Shown in pieces: positions 28,214-51,076 of a DNA stretch of 64,000 nt (positions within the stretch are counted from its first letter, which is position 1; each line of letters opens with the position of its first letter). The translations under genes and the position numbers were made by a program. The stretch comes from Thermovibrio guaymasensis. GTDB taxonomy: Bacteria; Aquificota; Aquificia; Desulfurobacteriales; Desulfurobacteriaceae. The stretch covers positions 248,001 to 312,000 of the forward strand of contig NZ_RBIE01000001.1 of the NCBI RefSeq assembly GCF_003633715.1, written 5' to 3'. The notes under the pieces are model-generated. The model had not been told where the DNA came from. It saw only the letters and a list, made by a program, of their open reading frames with translations, and did no database searches.

Positions 28214-28847
28214 TTACCCCCGAGGAGACGTTAAGAGGGGAGAGAGGATTTATGAGGAACTCAAGGAGAGGGGAGTAGAGGACTTAAAGTTCGTATCAAA
28301 AGGTTACAGAGGAGTTGTTTTCAAAGGCCTTTTAAAGGGAAAACCTGTTGCAGTTAAGGTAAGGCGTTCAGACACTCCAAAGGAAGTTCCCTTAAAAGAG
28401 TATAAGTTCCTCTCACACCTTTTTAATACTTTTGGTTCAGATGCTCCTTCTCCTCTTCCGTACTTTTCCACTAGCGATTTTGTCGTTATGGAGTGGATAG
28501 AGGGAAAGCCCTTTCCCGATGCCTTTAAAGAGGAACCGAGGCTTTCTACTAGGGGAGTTCTGATTTCATGCTACAAACTTGACGTTTCAAAAGTTGAGCA
28601 TTCAGAGATTAAGGGAGAGAAACACCTTATCTTTACAGGTGAAAATGTGAAGGTTATTGACTTTGAGAGTGCAAAATTTAAGGAAAGGCCGAGGAACCTT
28701 CTTCAGTTTGTCGGCTACCACCTAATAGGCAGGGGACTCTATAGGGAGTTGGGAGTAAGTTTAGGGACTTTGAGGGGTTTAATAGAGCTCTACAAGGTAG
28801 ATCCAGATGAAGGTCTAAAGGGCTTTCTATCAGAGTTAAAACTTTGA
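28176..28847 (+). CDS. predicted serine/threonine kinase, COG2112-like
   Basis: Protein of 223 residues with a compact protein-kinase-like fold. The nucleotide loop is KGYRGVVFKG, the ATP lysine is in VAVKVRR, the hinge is VVMEWIEGKPF, and the metal-binding Asp is in VKVIDFESAKF (DFE for DFG). The catalytic-loop position reads KLDVSKVEHSEI, an archaeal RIO-like variant without a plain HRD. This pattern fits COG2112, a family I know chiefly from archaea. The target is unknown. Confidence 0.75.
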   Translation: MESRSLRLLTLLDYPRGDVKRGERIYEELKERGVEDLKFVSKGYRGVVFKGLLKGKPVAVKVRRSDTPKEVPLKEYKFLSHLFNTFGSDAPSPLPYFSTSDFVVMEWIEGKPFPDAFKEEPRLSTRGVLISCYKLDVSKVEHSEIKGEKHLIFTGENVKVIDFESAKFKERPRNLLQFVGYHLIGRGLYRELGVSLGTLRGLIELYKVDPDEGLKGFLSELKL

Positions 28848-39757: not shown

Positions 39758-40984
39758 TTAATTTTCCTTAATTAGTATTAAGTCCACCGGTTCTCCTTCC
39801 TTCATAAATTTGACTCCTGAAGGGACAACCATTAATCCTGTATCTCCCGTCATTGCAGAGAGGATTCCAGACCCCTGCCTCCTAAGGGGAATAACTCTGT
39901 ATTCCCTTGAGTTTGGGTCGTAGGTGTATTTACACCTTGCAAACTCTGTTCTATCGGATTTTCTCCTTTTAAAGTCTTTAATAAGAATTCCTTTAACTTT
40001 CTTCCTAAAAGTTTTCTCTGCTCCTAACATTTTCTTAATGAAAGGATAAACGAAGTTGTTAAAGCTTACTACTGTGGAAACTGGAAATCCCGGGAGAGCA
40101 AAGATGAACTTATTCCCCTTCCTGCCGAAAAATACCGGTTTACCCGGCTTCACCTTTACCTTATAGAAGAGGGTTTCAACTCCTATTTCGGGAAGTATGT
40201 CCCTTATGAAGTCGTAGTTACCCATTGATATTCCGCCGGAGGTGATGACTAAATCGCAAAACTCAAGGGCTTGAGTTAGCTTCTCTTTGGTTTCTTCCCT
40301 ATCATCGTCAATGCGGCCAAGGTAGACCGGTTCACCCCCTGCTTCTACCGTAAGGCCGTAAAGGGTGTAGGCGTTTGAGTTCCTAATTTGGGAAATCTCT
40401 TTTAGCTCTTCTCCAGGCTCTACTATTTCGCTTCCGGTTGTTATTATCCCCACCTTCGGTTTTACCGAAACCTTTACGCTGGTCCTGTTAACGGAGGCAA
40501 GTATTCCCATCTCAATCGGCGTTATGTAAGTCCCTCTTTTTAAGAGGACCGTTCCCCTTTTGTAGTCTTCTCCCTTTTCCCTTATATTTGAACCTCTTGG
40601 AAAGGTTCTCTTTATAGTTACAAATCCGTTGTTTTCCTCTGCGTATTCAACAGGAACTACCGTATCACAGCCCTTAGGGATGATAGAGCCTGTAAAAATC
40701 CTTACTGCTTCTCCCCTTTCTAGGACTGAACTTGGAACTTTGCCTGCCGGGATGTCCTCAGTAACCTTAAGTTTTACAGGAACCTCCTCTATATCGTCAA
40801 ACCTTACTCCATATCCGTCCATTGCGGAGACGGGAGCGGGAGGGTTATCTCTATCTGCTAGAACGTCTTCTGCTAAAACTCTGTGAAGTGCGCTGAAGAT
40901 GGGAACTTTCTCTGAAGGAAGGAGCCTAGCTTGGGAGAGGACAATTTCCAGAGCTCTTTCAAAATCTATGTAAACGTTATCCAT
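39758..40984 (-). CDS. moeA: molybdopterin molybdenumtransferase MoeA
   Basis: Protein of 408 residues starting at 40984 after AAGGGAGGAG; the frame is open 22 codons further inside fdhD but has no RBS there. Motifs are AVSAMDGYGV (here PVSAMDGYGV), GSNIREKGEDYKRG, the central ITTGSEIV and SGGISMGNYD, and ALPGFPVSTVVSF. It inserts molybdate or tungstate into adenylated molybdopterin. It ends the formate dehydrogenase operon and converges on the MCP-like gene without a gap. Confidence 0.95.
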   Translation of the reverse strand: MDNVYIDFERALEIVLSQARLLPSEKVPIFSALHRVLAEDVLADRDNPPAPVSAMDGYGVRFDDIEEVPVKLKVTEDIPAGKVPSSVLERGEAVRIFTGSIIPKGCDTVVPVEYAEENNGFVTIKRTFPRGSNIREKGEDYKRGTVLLKRGTYITPIEMGILASVNRTSVKVSVKPKVGIITTGSEIVEPGEELKEISQIRNSNAYTLYGLTVEAGGEPVYLGRIDDDREETKEKLTQALEFCDLVITSGGISMGNYDFIRDILPEIGVETLFYKVKVKPGKPVFFGRKGNKFIFALPGFPVSTVVSFNNFVYPFIKKMLGAEKTFRKKVKGILIKDFKRRKSDRTEFARCKYTYDPNSREYRVIPLRRQGSGILSAMTGDTGLMVVPSGVKFMKEGEPVDLILIKEN

Positions 40985-41751
40985 TACTCCTCCCTTATTA
41001 CTCTGTCTGGTCTGTTGAATATGTTTAACCTTCCTGGCCTTGCGTAACATATGAGTGTAACGTCTGCCCTCTTAGCGATTTCAAGGCCGAGGGAGGAGGT
41101 AGCCGTTCTTGAGATCACAATGGGAATTCCAATCCTTGCACACTTTAAAACCATGTCGGAGGTAAGCCTTCCCGTTGTGTAAATCGCTCCTCTAGGAGGT
41201 AACTTTTTAAGAAGTATGGCTCCTACAACTTTATCTACTGCGTTGTGCCTTCCAACGTCTGCGTAAAAGGCTTCAAAGCCCCTTTCAGACCAGAAACCGC
41301 AGGCATGGGCGCAGTGGGTAAGGTTTCCTACCTCGTTTCTCCTGAGGGTTTCCTTTATCAGTTCGTCAATCTCAGAGAGCTTTATCCTATACTCCTGGAC
41401 ACCTTCAAAGGGCCTTTCCAGCATGTCCCTTGAAATTTTCCCGGTTCCACCACAACCGGAGGTAACGATTACTTCCTTTTTTTCAACTTTTTTGTTCTTC
41501 GTATAGACGAAGATTCCCCCCTTTTCACATACCCTCACTCCCTCTATATCCTCAGGTTTCTGTATGTATCCCTGCGAAAAGAGGAAACCTATTCCAAACT
41601 CCTCAAGGTTACAGGGGAGAACCATTGAACTTCCTATGAGCTGGTCGTTTAAGAAGACTTTATAGGGAACTTCGGTAACGACGAACTCCTCAAGCTCAAA
41701 TTGGCTGTCTGGGACTATTTCTAAGGTTTTGTGTTTTGAGTATAGGTCCAT
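40984..41751 (-). CDS. fdhD: formate dehydrogenase sulfurtransferase FdhD
   Basis: Protein of 255 residues. It has LPCNLEEFGIGFLFSQGYI, ADVGRHNAVDKVVGA, YTTGRLTSDMVLKCARIGIPI and the C-terminal nucleotide-binding region. FdhD carries sulfur from a cysteine desulfurase to the Mo/W-bisMGD of formate dehydrogenase. The mobile-loop CGxCG motif is here SGCGGTG, so the second Cys is Thr. It lies between fdhE and moeA in the fdh operon. Confidence 0.95.
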   Translation of the reverse strand: MDLYSKHKTLEIVPDSQFELEEFVVTEVPYKVFLNDQLIGSSMVLPCNLEEFGIGFLFSQGYIQKPEDIEGVRVCEKGGIFVYTKNKKVEKKEVIVTSGCGGTGKISRDMLERPFEGVQEYRIKLSEIDELIKETLRRNEVGNLTHCAHACGFWSERGFEAFYADVGRHNAVDKVVGAILLKKLPPRGAIYTTGRLTSDMVLKCARIGIPIVISRTATSSLGLEIAKRADVTLICYARPGRLNIFNRPDRVIREE

Positions 41752-41779: not shown

Positions 41780-42628
41780 TTAAAAGCCGAAAAGGTTTTT
41801 TGTTACTTTTTCGTACCCTTCTTCTAAAAGTCTAATATCTATGTAGGGGGTTGCCAAGTCCTCAACTAATGGTGAACAGGTTTTTCCTTCATCACTTAGG
41901 ACTCTTTCGTCAACTGTCTTAATGTAGTGCTTACACTTGTTGCATATATCAACCCTTATGTGCTTATCCTCCTTTGATTCTGGAATGAAGTAGTAGTGTT
42001 CTTCAAGGTCTTCGTTTCCGCAGTTAGCACATACGTCCCTTTTGATCGGCCACTCCCCGTAGCAAACAGGGCAGATTAAGAACCTTTTACCCTCTTTTTC
42101 CTTCTTAAGGTAGCCGATTAGAGCTTTTGAGCCACAGTAAGGGCAGTTTGTACTTTCAAAATCTTCAGTTAGTTGCTCTTGAAGTTTCTTTGAAACGGGA
42201 GAAAGTAGGATTGGAGTAACTGAGAGGACCGATAGGCGGAGGAATTCTAGAGGTACGTCTGGAATCTCTTTCCCTTCCAAAAGGTAACCTGTTAAGGATT
42301 CCTTTACTTTTTCAGGGCTAAAGTACCTATTTCCTTTTGCTTTCTTTGCGCTTTCTTTCATTTGAGGCGTTCCAAAGAGGGATATAAACTCAAAGAAATC
42401 TTCAAAAAGTTTAGAGATAGTTTCACTTTTTATTTCCTTTTCTATTATCTGGATGAGGGGTTTTTCCACTGCTAGTGAAGCTGGAAGTTCCTCGTAGTTA
42501 ATTCCTGTCCTTTCAAATGAGGTCCTCTGAAATTCAAGTATGTTCTGGTAAAGGTCAAGTATTTCCTTTGCTATAGAATTTTCCCTCTTTAGTTCTTTTA
42601 TCCTTCTAAAGGCTGTTTCAAAATCCAC
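41780..42628 (-). CDS. fdhE: formate dehydrogenase accessory protein FdhE
   Basis: Protein of 282 residues from a GTG with AGGAGGT upstream. The C-terminal half holds rubredoxin-like Cys pairs: CPYCGSKA, CPVCYGEW, CANCGNE, CNKCKHY. The end reads VEDLATPYIDIRLLEEGYEK, close to the family C terminus. It is needed for activity of Tat-exported formate dehydrogenase, in support of the Tat signal on FdhA. Confidence 0.93.
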   Translation of the reverse strand: MDFETAFRRIKELKRENSIAKEILDLYQNILEFQRTSFERTGINYEELPASLAVEKPLIQIIEKEIKSETISKLFEDFFEFISLFGTPQMKESAKKAKGNRYFSPEKVKESLTGYLLEGKEIPDVPLEFLRLSVLSVTPILLSPVSKKLQEQLTEDFESTNCPYCGSKALIGYLKKEKEGKRFLICPVCYGEWPIKRDVCANCGNEDLEEHYYFIPESKEDKHIRVDICNKCKHYIKTVDERVLSDEGKTCSPLVEDLATPYIDIRLLEEGYEKVTKNLFGF

Positions 42629-42683: not shown

Positions 42684-43337
42684 CTAAAGGATTCCCTTCT
42701 CTTTAAGTTCTTTGTACCACTCTGGGTTGTGAACCTTTATGTAGTCTTCGCTGACCTTTCCGTTAATCATGGCCCATATGGTTCCTGGGTTGGCGATGGT
42801 GGCTAGGTAGAAGTGGATGATAACAAAGGATATCCAGAGGACTCCTACTACAAAGTGGACTACTAGGAAGAGAGCTCTAAGGTCTTTTGAGACCAGGTCG
42901 TACATGAGGCTGAATCCTGTTACTGCCATTACTATTAGAGCTATGAGTCCGAACCAGTAGAAAATCTTCTGCCCTGCGTTTACCCTACCAGCCGGGGCGT
43001 GGGTTTTGTGGGTAGGGTCTAGGTAGCCTCCAAGTTTAGCAAGCCACTTGAAGTCGTAGGGTTTAAAGGTGCTTTCGGGAAGGAGTTTCAGGAATAGGAG
43101 GCCCCCACTTATAGTTAACACCCATCCGAAGAACTCGTGGACCGATTTAACGTTTTTCATTGAGCCAAAGAGGAACTCTCCAAGTCCGTTCCACTTGTAA
43201 GCTAGCGAAAGGCCCGTTATTGCAAGGACTATGAATGATATTAGGTGTATGAAGTGGAGCAGTCTCGTGAGAGCTCCGTACTTTTCAACGTACCTTTTAG
43301 TTCCTTTTCTTATGGCTTCTGAAGCGGTGGCTAGCAT
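42684..43337 (-). CDS. formate dehydrogenase cytochrome b subunit (FdnI/FdoI family)
   Basis: Protein of 217 residues with four membrane helices. Haem-ligand histidines are expected in LLHFIHLISFIVLAITG, VHEFFGWVL and LVVHFVVGVLWISFVIIHFY. The C terminus GTIWAMINGKVSEDYIKVHNPEW is characteristic of FdnI. It passes electrons from the periplasmic FdhAB to quinone. It follows a second, ferredoxin-fused cytochrome b in the operon. Confidence 0.93.
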   Translation of the reverse strand: MLATASEAIRKGTKRYVEKYGALTRLLHFIHLISFIVLAITGLSLAYKWNGLGEFLFGSMKNVKSVHEFFGWVLTISGGLLFLKLLPESTFKPYDFKWLAKLGGYLDPTHKTHAPAGRVNAGQKIFYWFGLIALIVMAVTGFSLMYDLVSKDLRALFLVVHFVVGVLWISFVIIHFYLATIANPGTIWAMINGKVSEDYIKVHNPEWYKELKEKGIL

Positions 43338-43349
43338 AACTCCCTCCTG

Positions 43350-44000
43350 TTAAGCTGGTTTAACATAAAGGGGGACTCCCCTTTCTGAGTAGTAAACGAC
43401 CTTGTAGGGACACACTTCAACACACTTATTGCAGGCTATACACCTGATGTCGTTAAACTCAACGGAACCGTCGTCTTTAGGTTTTATTGCTTCGGTTGGG
43501 CATACGCTGATACAGGGTTTTTCAGGACACTTTTTGCAGAGCTCTACGTACTTCTCAAATAGGATTCTCGGCTTGTTGAACCTTATGAGTGCGTGAACTA
43601 GAGTTACTGTAATCAGAACCAGTGCGAAGGTCTTGTGAACGGACATGGTAAACAGTGTAAGTTTCGGGGAGAAGTTAGACCTAAATATAAGGATTAGTCC
43701 CGTTGGAACCATGATCGTTAAGGATAGGAAAACGAACCAGTAGAATAACCTCTGGAAGAGGGCTTTAGGTGTTAGATTCCCTCTAATTCCCACGTCGGGT
43801 AGGATTTTTAGGCTGAGGTAGGTGTTTGTAAATAGGTATACCCATGCGGTAATCTTGTGAACCAGTTCGGCGTTCTTCTTCCCGCCGAAGAGAACCTCAA
43901 ATAGGTTCTTCCCCTTAATCATCAGGGCCATTCCCGATAGTCCCATTATCACAAATGCTAGGGCGTGAACCGCATGGGTATACTTGTGCTTAACGGCCAA
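43350..44000 (-). CDS. cytochrome b561-like membrane domain fused to a 2[4Fe-4S] ferredoxin
   Basis: Protein of 216 residues from a TTG start (GGAGAAGTAAAG upstream). Residues 1-150 form four membrane helices like those of FdnI, with histidines in HKYTHAVHALAF and FTMSVHKTFALVLITVTLVHAL. Residues about 152-205 carry two clusters: CKKCPEKPCISVCP (CX2CX4CX3C) and CIACNKCVEVCP. The C-terminal ferredoxin follows the last helix. It lies between FdhB and the plain cytochrome subunit, so the complex may have an extra electron branch. I do not know a named family. Confidence 0.85.
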   Translation of the reverse strand: MAVKHKYTHAVHALAFVIMGLSGMALMIKGKNLFEVLFGGKKNAELVHKITAWVYLFTNTYLSLKILPDVGIRGNLTPKALFQRLFYWFVFLSLTIMVPTGLILIFRSNFSPKLTLFTMSVHKTFALVLITVTLVHALIRFNKPRILFEKYVELCKKCPEKPCISVCPTEAIKPKDDGSVEFNDIRCIACNKCVEVCPYKVVYYSERGVPLYVKPA

Positions 44001-44002
44001 CT

Positions 44003-44854
44003 TTACTTCTCCTCTTCGTTAGATGTGATTTCCTCAACCCTCTTTGGTCCTATCGTTACGTAGTGGAAGAGAGCTCCAAGTGCAGACGCTCCGATGGCCA
44101 GAGCTCCAAGCGGACTGAATACCTCCTTCCACCATACGACAGACTGGGTGTGCTGTGGTTTGGGAGGAATCCAGGAGTACTTGTCAGGTGAGAAGGGCAG
44201 AACGAGGATTACGTTGGTCTTGTAATCCCCTACTCCGTAGGCGTTAGCTTCTGAAAAGCCTTTCTCTCTTAGTTTTTCAACCCTCTTTAGAGCTTCCCTT
44301 TCTAGCTCCTCTCTCTCTCCGTACTTTAAGGCCCCCGTAGGGCATGCACTAACGCAGGCCGGAGCTAGACCGTTGTCTATCCTGTCAATACAGAAGTTAC
44401 ACTTGTAGGACTTCTCAGTCTTCTCATCTATGTGGGGAACTCCAAATGGACAGGCATCTGCACAGTTTCCGCATCCAATACACAGGTCGTGATTTACGAA
44501 GACTACGCCGTCTTTCCTAACAGTCATTGCTCCTGTTGGGCAAACGGCGGCACAGTCCGGGTTTTCACAGTGGAAGCACGACTGCCTGTTAAAGAGCCAC
44601 ATTGGGTATCCGTCCTCTTTAAGGTGCTCGTCAAACCTGATAACTAGCCAGGTTTTTGGAGAAAGGTCCTTAGGGTTCTGGTAACTTCCCCAGTTGTGGG
44701 TTTTCTCTGCAGGTAAGTCGTGCCACTGCTTGCAGGCTCCCTGACAACCCCTACATGCAGTACACTTACTTGCGTCGTAGAGGATTGCCTTTCTCTTTAT
44801 ATTTACGTCAACCAAAGATAGGTCGGAGTTTTTATTCATAGTTCCGCTAATCAT
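44003..44854 (-). CDS. fdhB: formate dehydrogenase iron-sulfur subunit
   Basis: Protein of 283 residues. Four [4Fe-4S] sites are set by CTACRGCQGACKQWHD, CFHCENPDCAAVCPTGA, CIGCGNCADACPFGVP and CNFCIDRIDNGLAPACVSACPTGA. A C-terminal membrane helix (LGALAIGASALGALFHYV) anchors it, as in FdnH. It wires the Mo/W site of FdhA to the membrane cytochrome. RBS GGGAGGTAAAG. Confidence 0.95.
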   Translation of the reverse strand: MISGTMNKNSDLSLVDVNIKRKAILYDASKCTACRGCQGACKQWHDLPAEKTHNWGSYQNPKDLSPKTWLVIRFDEHLKEDGYPMWLFNRQSCFHCENPDCAAVCPTGAMTVRKDGVVFVNHDLCIGCGNCADACPFGVPHIDEKTEKSYKCNFCIDRIDNGLAPACVSACPTGALKYGEREELEREALKRVEKLREKGFSEANAYGVGDYKTNVILVLPFSPDKYSWIPPKPQHTQSVVWWKEVFSPLGALAIGASALGALFHYVTIGPKRVEEITSNEEEK

Positions 44855-44905: not shown

Positions 44906-47900
44906 TTAAGCCTTTTCCACGTCTACGAGGAATCCCTTATACTCAGGAATCATCGTGTTTGGATCCCCCCAGTGGGGTGTTGCTTTGTTGGCACTATCGC
45001 CCGTAGAGAGTCCCCTGTATCCCCAGTGCCACGGCATACCAATCTGATAGACCTTTTTACCGTTGACGTTGAGGGGCATCATCCTGTGAGTAACTACTGC
45101 AATTCCCTCTACAGTTCCCCTTGCCGATATTACCCTTACTTTATCTCCGTTCTTAATTCCTTTTTCTTTTGCAAGTTCAACTGGGATTTCTATGAACATA
45201 TCTGGCATCATTTCAACGAGGTAGGGAATGTTCCTCGTTAGAGCTCCAGACTGGTAGTGTTCACAAACCCTGTAGGTTGTGGCTACGTAAGGGAACCTTG
45301 AAGAGCTGCCTTTCTTGTTCATAGGACCGTTAACGAACTTCATGCTGAGGGCAATTGCAGGGTTAAAGTTCTGTTTGGGGTGGAGTAGGTTCTTTGTAAA
45401 GGACTCAAGGGGTTCGTAGAACTCTGGGAATGGACCATCTTTAAGTCCGGGAGCCCAGATCCTTGCAACTCCCTCTGGGAGCATGATGAATGCACCGACT
45501 CCTCTCTTAACTGCATCTGGAGGAGTTGTCTTTCCGTAGTCTGGAACGTCTCCGATCCACCTTGAGCCGTCCCACCAGATAACCGGCCTATCGGGACACC
45601 AAGGCCTTCCCTTATCGTCACAGGAAGCCCTGTTGTAGAGAATTCTTCTGTTGAGAGGCCAGCACCAGGTAAACTTGGGATAGAGGCCGGTTCCCGTTGT
45701 GTCGTCTGTATTTCTCCTTTTGGCAAGGTTCCCCTCTTCTGGGAAGACTCCGCTGTAGAGCCAGTTTCCGCAGGCTGTAGAACCGTCGTCTTTAAGCTTT
45801 GTAAAGTTTGCAACCCTCTTCCTCGTCTTCCAGTCAAACCCGTTTATCTCTGCAAGGACGTCCTCTGTATTAACCTCCTCTCCGTAAGGCCAGTAGGAGT
45901 CAAGTATTGGGTCTGGGAACGTTCCTCCCTCTTTCTCGTAGAGCTCCCTTATCTTCTTAAAGAGCATGTTGATTATGTCTGCGTCGGGTTTTGCTTCACC
46001 CGGTGGGTTAACTGCCTTCCACCTCCACTGGCACCATCTTCCAGAGTTTGTTACCGTTCCCTGCTTTTCGTAACTTGCAGCTGCAGGAAGGAGGAATACT
46101 TCAGTCTTAATGTCGGAAGGATTTACTCCCGGCCTCTTCCAGAACTCAGCCGTTTCAGTCTTAAATAGGTCAACGCAGACCATCCACTTGAGTTCTTCTA
46201 AGGCCTTCCTTTCCTTGTTTGCGTTTGGCCCTCCTACTGCAGCGTTCTGCCCCCAGAGGAACGCTCCCTCAAAGTGGCCGTTGAACATCTTCTCAAAGAG
46301 GACTATGTGGGAATAGTTTTCACCGTCGTCTAACTTCGGTAGGTAGCTGTAGCAGAAGTCATTTTCTTTCTTTGCCTTTTCTCCCCACCATGCTTTAAGG
46401 AGTGAGACTATGAACTTGGGGTAGTTCTTCCAGTAGTTTACTGAACCCTTAATTAGGGGTTTTGGAGTGTACTTATCTAGGTACTGCTGGAGGGTCTGTT
46501 GAGACTCCCTTGGAGTTTTGAGGTATCCGGGTAGTATGTGGAAGAGGAGGCACATGTCTGTTGAACCCTGAACGTTTGACTCACCACGGAGGGCGTTAAT
46601 TCCGCCTCCGGCAAGGCCGATGTTACCAAGGAGTAGTTGCATTATTACGAAGGAACGGATGTTCTGAGTTCCGTAGGTGTGCTGTGTTAGACCCATGGCG
46701 TACATGTGGGTCATAACCCTGTCCGGTCTTCCCGTTGAGGCGACCACTTTTGCAATTTCTAAGAACTTCTCCTTAGGACATCCCGTTATCTTCTCAACTA
46801 CTTCGGGAGTGTACCTTGAGAAGTGCTTTTTGAGGAGTTGGAATACACAACGGGGATGTTGGAGGGTCGGGTCCCTCATTATTTCACCGTTTTCGTCCCT
46901 CTTATAGGTCCAGCCTCCCTTTTTCTTGTCGTACTTACCGTATGCTGAGCCTTCAAACTCACCGAGTTTTATAAAGCCTGAGAAGACTCCCTCTTCAGGG
47001 TCAAAGTCAAACTTATCGTCAACTATCCATGAGGCGTTTGTGTGGAGTTTAACGTACTCTTTGTTGTAGCTCTCAGTTTGGAGGATGTAGTTAATAAGGC
47101 CACCGACGAAGGCAATGTCTGTTCCAATCCTTATTGGAGCGTAGATGTCTGCCTTTGCTGCCGTCCTTGTGAACCTCGGGTCAACAACTATTAGCTTTGC
47201 TCCCCTCTCTTCCCTGGCCTTTTCAACCCACTTAAATGAAATTGGGTGGTTTTCGGCTGCGTTTGAGCCCATTATTAGAATTACGTCTGCGTTCTTTATG
47301 TCAATCCAGTGGTTTGTCATAGCACCACGTCCGAATGAGTTGGCCAAACTGGCCACTGTGGTGCTGTGTCATATGCGGGCCTGGTGCTCCAGGTAAACGA
47401 TACCAAGAGTCCTTAGCATCTTGACTAATAGGTAACACTCCTCGTTGTCAAGGGATGCTGAACCTAGACTGGCAATTCCTTCACACCTGTTAACAACGTT
47501 TCCTTTCTTGTTCCTGGTTATGAAGGTTCTGTCTCTGGTTTCCTTAACTCTCCTAGCTATCTGTTCTATTGCCCACTCCCAGCTTACCTCTCTCCACTCA
47601 GAGGAGCCTGGGGCCCTGTAGAGGGGCTTTGTTAACCTCCTTGGGTTTTCGCTCCCTGCAAGCTGTCTTAAGGTTGCACCCTTAGAACACAGAGCTCCCC
47701 TGTTTATTACGTGGTCTGGGTCTCCCTCAAGGTTTATGACCTTGTTTGTGTGAGGGATGGAGTGGACGAGCATTCCGCATCCTACGGCACAGTAGGGGCA
47801 GATTGTTTTTGTTTCCTTTGCCTTTGTTATTTTGAGCTCCGACGCCTTAGCCTCTGCCGGCTTTAGGTCTATTCCTAGGGCCGTTCCTGCGGTGATGACC

Positions 47901-47938
47901 CCTGCCGCTTTTAGGAAGTTTCTTCTTGTTATTCCCAT
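44906..47938 (-). CDS. fdhA: selenocysteine-containing formate dehydrogenase alpha subunit
   Basis: One gene of 1010 codons read through an in-frame TGA at 47369-47371 (residue 190). Upstream are a Tat signal (ITRRNFLKAAG) and the [4Fe-4S] Cys set CPYCAVGCGML...GALCSKGA. The TGA falls in LEHQARI-U-HSTTVASLANSFGRGA, exactly where E. coli FdnG has selenocysteine, and the frame is intact for 820 codons after it (LIMGSNAAENHP, GGGINALRGESNVQGSTD, C-terminal VRVISARGTVEG). The bis-MGD enzyme oxidises formate outside the membrane or reduces CO2. A SECIS-like hairpin follows the TGA. An interruption by mutation is unlikely. Confidence 0.95.
47321..47371 (-). promoter_or_regulatory. UGA codon and bacterial SECIS hairpin in fdhA mRNA
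   Basis: Starting four bases after the UGA (47369-47371), AGCACCAC (plus-strand 47358-47365) pairs perfectly with GTGGTGCT (plus-strand 47321-47328). The apical part TGGCCA-GTT-TGGCCA gives a GGCC stem with loop AGUUU, close to the GU-containing loops of E. coli fdhF/fdnG SECIS elements that bind SelB. Confidence 0.8.
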
Positions 47939-48024: not shown

Positions 48025-48657
48025 ATGGTTCCTTTAATTTCCTTTACGGGAAGCACCGATCTTGAGGGGTTCGTCTCTAAAGTCCTAGACCTTCTAAGGG
48101 AAAGAGGTTACAGGGTTGCTATTTTTAAAGAGGGTATAACGGAAATCCCCCTTGAAGGTTATAAAGCAGATGGAGTTTGTAGCCTTAATTCAGGGAAAGT
48201 TTCCCTCTCTAGAGGGGTAGATGGCTTTAACCTTAAGTACCTCTCCTTCCTCCTCTTTGACGACTACGACATCGTTGTTTGTCTTGGAGTTGAAGGTCCA
48301 GACTTGCCGAGGTTTGAGCTTCTAGATAGGGGTAAGGGGTTAGATTGCCTAAAGAGTAAAAAGAACGTTATCGGCGTTGTTTCAGACAAAGGTTTTGGAG
48401 GAATTAGAACTTTCCCTCTAGATAGACCTGAGGAACTTGTTGATTTTATAGAGGATAAGTTTATAAAGAGGAGGGAGGATTCTTTTCCGGATGAGGTGGA
48501 GCTCTTTGTGAACGGGCGTAGGGTTCCGATGAAGCACTACGTTAAAGAGACTTTGAGGGAAATCCTTTTTGGTTTTATTAAACCCCTAAAGGGAATAGAC
48601 TACCCGGTTGAGAAGTTGGATATTAGGATTGTTGTCGGTAAGGGAAGAACTCCCTGA
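48025..48657 (+). CDS. MobB-like protein with degenerate P-loop
   Basis: Protein of 210 residues. The N terminus LISFTGSTDLEGFVSKVLDL...RGYRVAIFKEG follows the MobB pattern, but the Walker A GxxxxGK[ST] is lost (GSTDLEG). The C-terminal domain DEVELFVNGRRVPMKHYVKETLREILFGFIKPLKG matches the MobB extension found in archaeal and deltaproteobacterial forms. It sits divergent from the fdh operon and converges on wtpC with a 35-bp overlap. A role in Mo/W cofactor handling is inferred; GTP hydrolysis is doubtful. Confidence 0.7.
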   Translation: MVPLISFTGSTDLEGFVSKVLDLLRERGYRVAIFKEGITEIPLEGYKADGVCSLNSGKVSLSRGVDGFNLKYLSFLLFDDYDIVVCLGVEGPDLPRFELLDRGKGLDCLKSKKNVIGVVSDKGFGGIRTFPLDRPEELVDFIEDKFIKRREDSFPDEVELFVNGRRVPMKHYVKETLREILFGFIKPLKGIDYPVEKLDIRIVVGKGRTP

Positions 48658-49327
48658 TTTTCTGGGGGAGCTCCCCTCTTGCCCTCTCAACAAAGTCTTT
48701 CCAGCTTTCAAAGTAAAAGGTCTTTCCCCTTTCCACGTAGAGGACTCTATCTGCCAGTCTCTCTGCCTCTAGAGGGTCGTGGGTAATGTGTAGGATGGTT
48801 CTCTTTCCCTTTAGTTCCTTTAAGAAGTCTATTAGTTTTGTTTTAGTGAGGAAGTCTAAGGAGCTTAGGGGTTCGTCAAGGATTATTACTTCTGGATCTG
48901 AAAGTATGGCCCTTGCAAGGGCGACTCTCTGAACTTCTCCTCCTGAGACCTCAGAAGGCCTTTTAAACAGAATCTCCTTAACGTTAAACTGGAAGGCTAT
49001 CTCCTCTACTTTCCTTCTATCAAACTTCTCTTTCCTTATCCTTAGGGGAAATTCTAGGTTTTCTAGAATAGACATGTGGGGAAAGAGGGTATTGCTCTGG
49101 GGTAAGTATGAAATTCTCCTCTTTTCAGGCGGTAAGTTACTTATATCTTTACCTTTTAGTATAACTTTGCACCTATCGGCCCTCTCTATACCGGAGATGA
49201 CCTTTGCTATCATGCTCTTTCCGGCGCCGCTTCTTCCTAGAACTACTACGTATTCCTTCTCCTTTACTCGGAAGTTGGCTTCAATCTTAAAGGACTTCAG
49301 CTTCTTTTCAACCTTTACCTCAAGCAA
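48623..49327 (-). CDS. wtpC: tungstate/molybdate ABC transporter ATPase
   Basis: Protein of 234 residues from a TTG start. Walker A is GRSGAGKS, the Q-loop is SYLPQSNTLFPHM, the signature is VSGGEVQRVALARAIL and Walker B is VIILDEPLSS. There is no C-terminal TOBE/MOP domain, as in short WtpC/TupC forms. It energises the WtpAB importer encoded upstream. Confidence 0.85.
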   Translation of the reverse strand: MLEVKVEKKLKSFKIEANFRVKEKEYVVVLGRSGAGKSMIAKVISGIERADRCKVILKGKDISNLPPEKRRISYLPQSNTLFPHMSILENLEFPLRIRKEKFDRRKVEEIAFQFNVKEILFKRPSEVSGGEVQRVALARAILSDPEVIILDEPLSSLDFLTKTKLIDFLKELKGKRTILHITHDPLEAERLADRVLYVERGKTFYFESWKDFVERARGELPQKIREFFPYRQQS

Positions 49328-50108
49328 TCCTCTTCTCTCTCCTGTACGATATTGACAGCAGGATGATAAAGATGATGAGACTTATGCATATTACTAAAAC
49401 GGCAATTGGAGTGGAGTTCTTGAGCCCGTAGTCCTCAAAGCGCTCGTACATGAGGACAGGGGCGGTTATTGGGTAGTAGGCTATTATGAGGATAGCTCCT
49501 ACCTCGCTGATTGAACGGGCAAATGAGAGGATAGCTCCCCTGAGGATGTACGGAAAGGCGAGGGGGAGGATAACGAACTTAACTACTTGGTAGGGGGAAG
49601 CTCCCAAACTCCTTGCGGTCCATATTAGCTCCTTGTTTATTGAGCGAAATCCCATTAAAGAGGAGGTAATTGTGTAGGAGATACTTACAAAACACATGGC
49701 AATTATTATTCCGTAGATCGTATCAACGAAGCTGATTCCTAAGCGGGAAAAGAACTTACCTAAAGGGGAGTTTGAGTTTAGAAGTTCTAAGAGTGTTATC
49801 CCGACTGCAACGTGGGGAATGACTATTGGAAGGTTTATGACGCTCTCAACAAGTTCACTGTACTTAGACTCGGTTTGAAAGAGGAAGTAGGACGTAGGCA
49901 CTCCCATTATTAGACCTACTATAGTGGCAAAGGTCGCTCCCTTTAGACTTGTAAATATGGCTTTCCATACCTCTCCGTCTTTTAAGGTATTTTTAAAGTT
50001 TTCCGGATCTAAGGAGATAAAAACGTTTAAGATTGGAAGGGCTATAAAGGTAAGGCAAGTAAGGGTTAGTGTAATAATTAAAAGATAGAGCCACTTAGGG
50101 TTTTTCAT
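49320..50108 (-). CDS. wtpB: tungstate/molybdate ABC transporter permease
   Basis: Protein of 262 residues with six membrane helices. The coupling EAA loop is INKELIWTARSLGASPYQVVKFVILPLAFPYILRG, and the family motif NLPIVIPHVAVGITLLELLN is present. It overlaps both neighbours by a few bases. RBS GAGGAAAA precedes the ATG. Confidence 0.88.
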   Translation of the reverse strand: MKNPKWLYLLIITLTLTCLTFIALPILNVFISLDPENFKNTLKDGEVWKAIFTSLKGATFATIVGLIMGVPTSYFLFQTESKYSELVESVINLPIVIPHVAVGITLLELLNSNSPLGKFFSRLGISFVDTIYGIIIAMCFVSISYTITSSLMGFRSINKELIWTARSLGASPYQVVKFVILPLAFPYILRGAILSFARSISEVGAILIIAYYPITAPVLMYERFEDYGLKNSTPIAVLVICISLIIFIILLSISYRREKRIA

Positions 50109-51076
50109 TTTTCCTCTTTGGATATCCTCCTAGGAGGGTATAGGGCCTTTTGGTAGCAACTTCTTATAATCTCTGCTCCCCTTTCTGAGGTTACAAAATC
50201 CTCCCACATCTTTGCCTCCTTTGGGTGGGGAGCGTTTTTTAGGGTTGTAATACCGTAGGCTATAGGTTTGCCTGTAATTACTCTACCGTTTCCAAGTACC
50301 AACTTAACCTTTGAGTAGTACTTCCTCAGGCTGAAATCTGAGAGGTTTATCTCCCTTGGAAGTTCCACGTACTTTAGTCGGTGCTGGAGTGCTACGCTCT
50401 TATACTCTACTACGTAGTCAACGGAGCCGCTCTCAAGTAATCCTAAAAGCGCAACTGCCTTTGGGCGAATAAAGAGCTTATCTCCCACCTTCCTGAAGTT
50501 CTTTGGAACTACGATTTTATACCCGTTTGGCTCTCTCTCTACTTTAACGTTTGTACTTGTTTTTAAGAGCTCCTCATAAATGGGTTTTTTATAGTAGTCG
50601 GAGGCCAGGGCAATCATAATTAAAGTTCTATAACCACAGGGGTCTAAATTTGGGTTTGAAAAGCCCCACTTAACGTCTTTTCTCTTTAAGATCTCGTACC
50701 AGTTGCTTTGGTTGATTTTGTCGCTGTACTTTGACTTAGGCGTATAGCAGATTACGAGTTCGTTTGTTGCAAATACTTTAACGTGGTCGGCATAGTTGGG
50801 AAACATGAACTTTGGAATTAGGGAGTAATCTGCACTGGCTACTACATCACACGGTTTGTGGAGGTCAATGACCTTCCTAATGGCCTTTAAACTTCCGCTT
50901 GATTCCCTCCTTACGTCAATGTTGGGGTGTTCCTTCTCAAACTCCTCTTCCAGCTTCTTGAAAGGAACGGAGAGGCTTCCGGCGTGGAAGACTATTAAAG
51001 GGGTCTTCTCTCCTCCGTAGCTGCTATTTAGAGCTAATAGAGTTAATATTAAAAAGGTTTTTAGAACCTTTTTCAA
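50105..51076 (-). CDS. wtpA: tungstate/molybdate-binding periplasmic protein
   Basis: Protein of 323 residues from a TTG start with a Sec signal (LKTFLILTLLALNSSYGG). The mature part opens PLIVFHAGSLSVPFKKLEEEFEK and has the oxyanion-binding SSGSLKAIRKVID, CDVVASADYSLIP and GFSNPNLDPCGYRTLI segments typical of archaeal-type WtpA rather than ModA. It feeds Mo or W to cofactor synthesis for the nearby formate dehydrogenase. Confidence 0.92.
   Translation of the reverse strand: MKKVLKTFLILTLLALNSSYGGEKTPLIVFHAGSLSVPFKKLEEEFEKEHPNIDVRRESSGSLKAIRKVIDLHKPCDVVASADYSLIPKFMFPNYADHVKVFATNELVICYTPKSKYSDKINQSNWYEILKRKDVKWGFSNPNLDPCGYRTLIMIALASDYYKKPIYEELLKTSTNVKVEREPNGYKIVVPKNFRKVGDKLFIRPKAVALLGLLESGSVDYVVEYKSVALQHRLKYVELPREINLSDFSLRKYYSKVKLVLGNGRVITGKPIAYGITTLKNAPHPKEAKMWEDFVTSERGAEIIRSCYQKALYPPRRISKEEK

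Follow-up and report, generated by a model that had tools for sequence, protein, structure and literature searches.

The fdhA gene of Thermovibrio guaymasensis is read here, with a probability of about 0.97, as encoding the alpha subunit of a periplasmic, membrane-anchored formate dehydrogenase-N that has selenocysteine (Sec) as its metal-binding residue and whose UGA190 is decoded via a hairpin. The Sec reading is supported because the homology through the TGA, the exchange of Cys and TGA at this site, a conserved hairpin of the SECIS-model kind, and the presence of selA, selB, selC, and selD all agree. The gene product is a genuine selenoprotein with good support, of the kind that is commonest in bacteria, and its decoding follows the pattern of many other species; FdhA was found in 67 of 75 Sec-using organisms (PMC1794560).

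In the window (the whole 64,000-nucleotide stretch of DNA that was analysed), fdhA lies on the minus strand at 47938..44906; no strand had been given in the preliminary description. Under the standard code, the locus contains two ORFs, one of 189 aa at 47369..47938 and the other of 816 aa at 44906..47356; when the single TGA at 47371..47369 is read through, a single 1,010-residue protein results, with U at position 190. This fdnG-type protein matched TIGR01553 (formate dehydrogenase-N alpha) with 1421.9 bits against a cut-off of 814.2 over residues 3-1009 of 1010, and its residues 1-1009 aligned with Sec-containing formate dehydrogenases of solved structure. The N-terminus, MGITRRNFLK, is of the twin-arginine type as read by eye. 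Codon 190 aligned with Sec or Cys in relatives and with the TGA of E. coli fdnG (L143), where the motif is NQARV-U-HGPTVASLAPTFGRGAMTNHW, compared with HQARI-U-HSTTVASLANSFGRGAMTNHW here, the TGA position being identical. Thus, the earlier claims that a TGA splits the alpha subunit at the Sec site of FdnG, and that homology continues in frame beyond it, were borne out. The expectation that automated annotation would split the gene held for plain ORF calling, which yields the two ORFs, but not for RefSeq, in which E. coli fdnG is one CDS. Similarity to E. coli and plasmid sequences was only partial among the matches listed, which covered 7-10% of the gene at ~65-69% identity.

The hairpin was examined with positions numbered from the base following the UGA. 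The outer stem is formed by AGCACCAC at +4..+11 (47358..47365, minus strand) and GTGGTGCT at +41..+48 (47321..47328, minus strand), with 8/8 bases paired. The apical hairpin UGGCC-AGUUU-GGCCA occupies +14..+28 (47341..47355, minus strand), in which UGGCC (+14..+18) pairs with GGCCA (+24..+28) at 5/5 positions around the loop AGUUU (+19..+23); ViennaRNA also closes the loop with an A-U pair, leaving a GUU triloop. The geometry proposed from the sequence, namely an 8-bp outer stem starting at +4, a GGCC apical stem, and the loop AGUUU, was therefore reproduced, as was the double occurrence of TGGCCA in this region. The proposed folding of the nucleotides after the UGA also gave a strong structure: the 61-nt fold reached -22.7 kcal/mol (z -2.81 against dinucleotide shuffles, 1/200 of which were equally good), and when synonymous codons were redrawn according to local codon usage, only 8 of 2,000 recodings folded equally well. 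Among 5,000 synonymous recodings, 8/8 outer pairs arose in 0.06% and 5/5 apical pairs in 8%.

In the bSECIS model as cited in PMC13188914, a loop of 3-9 nt with a G at its first or second position is closed by an upper stem of 4-16 bp, the distance to the UGA is 16-37 nt, and the MFE is -7.5 kcal/mol or lower. The fdhA hairpin agrees with this model, having a loop of 5 nt, a stem of 5 bp, G at the second loop position, and a spacing of 18 nt, while its MFE of -7.8 kcal/mol lies within the limit by a narrow margin. When control codon positions in neighbouring genes were assessed, 68 of 3,826 passed a loose SECIS model, and none had an equally strong fold. No match was returned when the window was scanned against Rfam at gathering thresholds; the fdhA SECIS thus scored below the threshold of every Rfam family.

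Whether the hairpin is maintained as RNA was assessed from synonymous codons. One comparison was with a Desulfurobacteriaceae MAG of another genus (L002, whose contig is the same as C117 of genome G020 by coordinates). Between the two genes, 396 of 1,011 codons differed (348 synonymous and 48 non-synonymous), and the proteins were 95% identical, a level maintained on both sides of the TGA. Nevertheless, 25 codons in a row were identical, comprising I189, the UGA, and 23 codons beyond it, whereas the next-longest identical run was 15 codons; a run of 25 was reached in 33 of 20,000 shuffles. Among 87 distinct Sec sequences, the apical region folded at -8.35 kcal/mol, compared with -5.43 kcal/mol after synonymous codons had been permuted between rows (z -23.8). 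L002 was left out of this permutation as well as of the outer-stem and within-family codon-invariance statistics. As judged from these codon comparisons, the fdhA hairpin is under RNA-level selection.

The outer stem requires a separate consideration. In relatives, pairing in the fixed register was 0.636, close to the codon-permutation mean of 0.630, and 59 of 300 permutations were equally high; it was likewise similar in Sec rows (0.631) and Cys rows (0.646, from only 6 rows). These values would be expected if the outer 8-bp stem had arisen from codon choice by chance, with the apical hairpin alone being of importance, which is compatible with the Sec reading. We consider such a coincidence unlikely, since the rarity of 8/8 pairs among synonymous recodings of fdhA speaks against it, and permuting the outer codons alone in relatives made the fold ~2 kcal/mol weaker in both loop classes, with 0 of 100 permutations equally good. 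Because outer-codon permutation weakens folding, a lower stem seems to be favoured in relatives, with its register drifting. We read the perfect 8-bp outer stem of the present gene as a local strengthening of this lower stem. The description of the repeat as unusually perfect is thus correct for this gene, but the fixed outer register is not conserved in relatives. Desulfurobacteriaceae are thermophilic, and raising the temperature from 37 C to 70 C weakened the predicted full fold from -20.4 to -8.0 kcal/mol and the predicted core hairpin from -8.6 to -3.4 kcal/mol. Since predicted folds weaken in this way, strengthening of the stem would have a purpose in a thermophile; the eight outer pairs probably help to keep the hairpin folded when the organism grows at high temperature.

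Relatives were collected from 80 loci in genome contigs, and the site codon was TGA in 74 and Cys in 6. These loci give 81 sites, as L044 contributes both a Cys copy and a distinct gene with a TGA. L106 (a copy of the window gene) and L114 (a copy of L002) were excluded from the counts, whereas L044b, L129, and L130, which are other types of formate dehydrogenase, were counted but left out of the tree. In L117 and L122 the motif was not matched, and they were kept out of the permutation, outer-stem, codon-invariance, and class statistics and of the tree; read by hand, both have the TGA and an AGUUU loop.

The hairpins in L003-L081 were seen in two registers, 15-36 nt after the Sec codon. In one class (51 sequences), a UGGCA or UGGGA loop lies 22 nt after the UGA, and all 51 agree with the SECIS model; codons 6, 7, 8, 10, and 11 after the UGA are 100% invariant synonymously while their neighbours vary, and codon 9 is likewise invariant wherever it encodes Ala. 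The other class (39 sequences, including the present fdhA) has AGUUU, AGUCU, or GGUCU loops at 17-18 nt, and the strict SECIS model fits 19 of the 39. Two of the six Cys rows also fit the model. Passing or failing the strict model is not decisive, because only 19/39 of fdhA's own loop class pass. In a protein tree of 88 Sec rows, built after removal of the hairpin-encoded residues, the hairpin class changed at least 4 times; the tree was a quick one, midpoint-rooted and made without a mixture model. We lean towards the view that one enzyme family uses two alternative SECIS registers in the same codons, in which case SelB would have to accept both and the signal could move while the Sec codon stays. 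A narrow open-access text search, which was not aimed at this point, found no description of a two-register SECIS. What SelB truly requires could be tested on the two registers that occur naturally among the relatives.

The Sec machinery was then considered in the assembly containing the window (1.62 Mb, 9 contigs), where the preliminary description had proposed looking for selA, selB, selC, and selD. All were present: selA (521 bits), selB (431.5 bits, cut-off 242.25), selD (372.3 bits), and selC, the tRNA-Sec (80.8 bits, gathering threshold 47), which has the anticodon UCA in the anticodon loop CUUCAAA and lies on a different contig from fdhA. Absence of selB or selC had been named as a finding that would refute the proposal; this objection fails because both genes are present. 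The selD gene (L103 573-1610, C1) likewise runs through an in-frame TGA, which is its codon 16. A hairpin past this TGA, GCCC-GGUC-GGGC, fits the loose SECIS model.

Considering established knowledge of this pathway, Sec is almost certainly inserted at UGA190. When the ribosome reaches UGA190, the hairpin, with its AGUUU loop 18 nt downstream, would be bound by SelB carrying GTP and Sec-tRNA(UCA). The latter would be produced by SelA from Ser-tRNA with selenophosphate from SelD. After Sec insertion, 820 further residues would be translated, and FdhA would be exported by the Tat route. The enzyme would then oxidize formate, and the electrons would reach quinone by way of FdhB and then the cytochrome b subunit.

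Two other readings of the TGA were weighed. If it were a true stop produced by decay or a sequencing error, the locus would be a pseudogene or encode two proteins, as the two ORFs of plain ORF calling might suggest. We regard this as extremely improbable, since the relative from another genus carries the same TGA with 95% protein identity on both sides, TGA occupies the site in 74/80 relatives, the synonymous codons after it are frozen, and the sel genes are present in the genome. Alternatively, the UGA might be read through as a residue other than Sec, by suppression or as Trp or Cys, and Cys does stand at the site in 6/80 relatives. This too is very improbable: the genome has the complete Sec machinery and a second TGA gene in selD, and a hairpin of the SECIS kind follows the UGA. 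A window screen for genes running through TGA moreover returned only fdhA and two poor candidates, giving no sign of general TGA reassignment. The two weak candidates, at window positions 28845 and 29045 on the plus strand, probably end at ordinary stops. Sec insertion thus remains the preferred reading.

The genes around fdhA are in accordance with a formate dehydrogenase-N, as the partner subunits are present. The iron-sulfur beta subunit gene fdhB (44003..44854, minus strand; PF09163, PF13247) encodes the C-terminal transmembrane helix of formate dehydrogenase-N (PF09163), with a TIGR01582 score of 249.4 bits below the cut-off of 334.7, and the fdnI-type cytochrome b gamma subunit (42684..43337, minus strand) scored 145.6 bits against TIGR01583, over the cut-off of 115.85. 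Beside this normal gamma subunit stands a fusion of a cytochrome-b561-like part and a C-terminal 4Fe-4S ferredoxin (43350..44000, minus strand; PF01292 at 81-144, PF13247 at 153-207), which is also found in L156. Further along the minus strand are genes for an fdhE-like accessory protein (41780..42628; PF24859, PF24860; 62.8 bits against TIGR01562, below cut-off), an fdhD-like sulfurtransferase (40984..41751, named by eye, with an 86% identical homologue in G005), and a moeA-like molybdopterin molybdenumtransferase (39758..41050, named by eye). On the other side of fdhA, a MobB-like gene on the plus strand (48025..48657) is followed by a wtpCBA-type tungstate ABC transporter on the minus strand (48623..51076; C 48623-49327, B 49320-50108, A 50105-51076). 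WtpA scored 377.4 bits (cut-off 242.75), whereas WtpB and WtpC were best matches but below their cut-offs. The MobB-like protein is without the Walker A motif present in its relatives; the region reads MVPLISFTGSTDLEGF here, compared with GYHNSGKTT in L002 and GYQNSGKTT in L154. The gene order is therefore moeA-like, fdhD-like, fdhE-like, gamma, cytochrome-b/ferredoxin fusion, fdhB, fdhA, MobB-like, and wtpCBA-type. Because WtpABC-type genes adjoin the operon, tungsten rather than molybdenum is likely the metal of FdhA.

In G005 (L154, C1:827500-835500), moeA, fdhD, the MobB-like gene, and wtpCBA stand in unchanged order without the fdhE-to-fdhA block, and only ~145 bp separate fdhD from the MobB-like gene, which represents an empty-site arrangement. 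G008 (L155) has moeA in reversed orientation, the MobB-like gene, and wtpCBA, also without the block. Because both genomes have the locus but not the block, the selenoprotein operon is, going by gene arrangement, a present/absent block within an otherwise shared tungsten/molybdenum cofactor locus.

Among 22 Desulfurobacteriaceae genomes, the full-length gene was found only in the present assembly and in G020. The tRNA-Sec was detected in 20/22 (not in G001 or G020), and selB was over the cut-off in 20/22 (not in G018 or G020). With the machinery in 20/22 genomes and the gene in two, the family's Sec machinery is independent of the FdhA enzyme. In G020 (L156), a MAG of 87% completeness with a TGA-bearing fdhA, neither selB nor tRNA-Sec scored above the thresholds applied, and incompleteness of the bin is the probable reason. 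Family f4, which belongs to the same class, was represented by 25 genomes; the gene was present in 14, all with tRNA-Sec, and 3 of the 11 gene-less genomes had tRNA-Sec; all 14 full-length homologues had one TGA and an AGUUU loop. At the same thresholds, neither the gene nor tRNA-Sec was found in f3 (12 genomes) or f2 (2 genomes). A recent transfer between genera was suspected, as FdhA is 95% identical between the present genome and G020, whereas identity reaches only 49-68% in the MobB-like, Wtp, and FdhE proteins. The support was insufficient, because 38% of the comparable sites have different synonymous codons and the tree joins this pair to the f4 clade. Ancestry with strong constraint would explain the FdhA identity equally well.

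These results correct a gene that plain calling would split into two ORFs, show that a seleno-formate dehydrogenase occurs in a family most of whose examined genomes (20 of 22) are without one, and provide a worked case of a SECIS element supported through frozen synonymous codons. Compared with known systems, the f4 formate dehydrogenase-N homologues are sister to the present gene in the tree (12/14 included) and share the single TGA and AGUUU loop at 54-57% protein identity; however, in 13/14 of them tRNA-Sec and fdhA share a contig and lie within ~4 kb of each other, whereas here they are on separate contigs. The Sec-containing alpha subunits of solved structure with which FdhA aligned are 8cm4, 6sdr, and 9qm0; for these and for 1h0h the score was more than 1,078 bits, over residues 1-1009 (34-1010 for 1h0h). 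We take these to be soluble Desulfovibrio enzymes, 1h0h presumably containing tungsten; unlike them, the present operon has membrane cytochrome b subunits. E. coli FdnG shares the TIGR01553 family, the UGA site, and the position of a loop with AGU(C/U)U, but it is without the adjoining tungstate transporter genes and the operon cytochrome-b/ferredoxin fusion. The present outer stem is paired at all 8 positions, unlike that of the E. coli fdnG SECIS, and the hairpin folds more strongly (-22.7 kcal/mol over 61 nt, compared with -14.6 kcal/mol over 54 nt).
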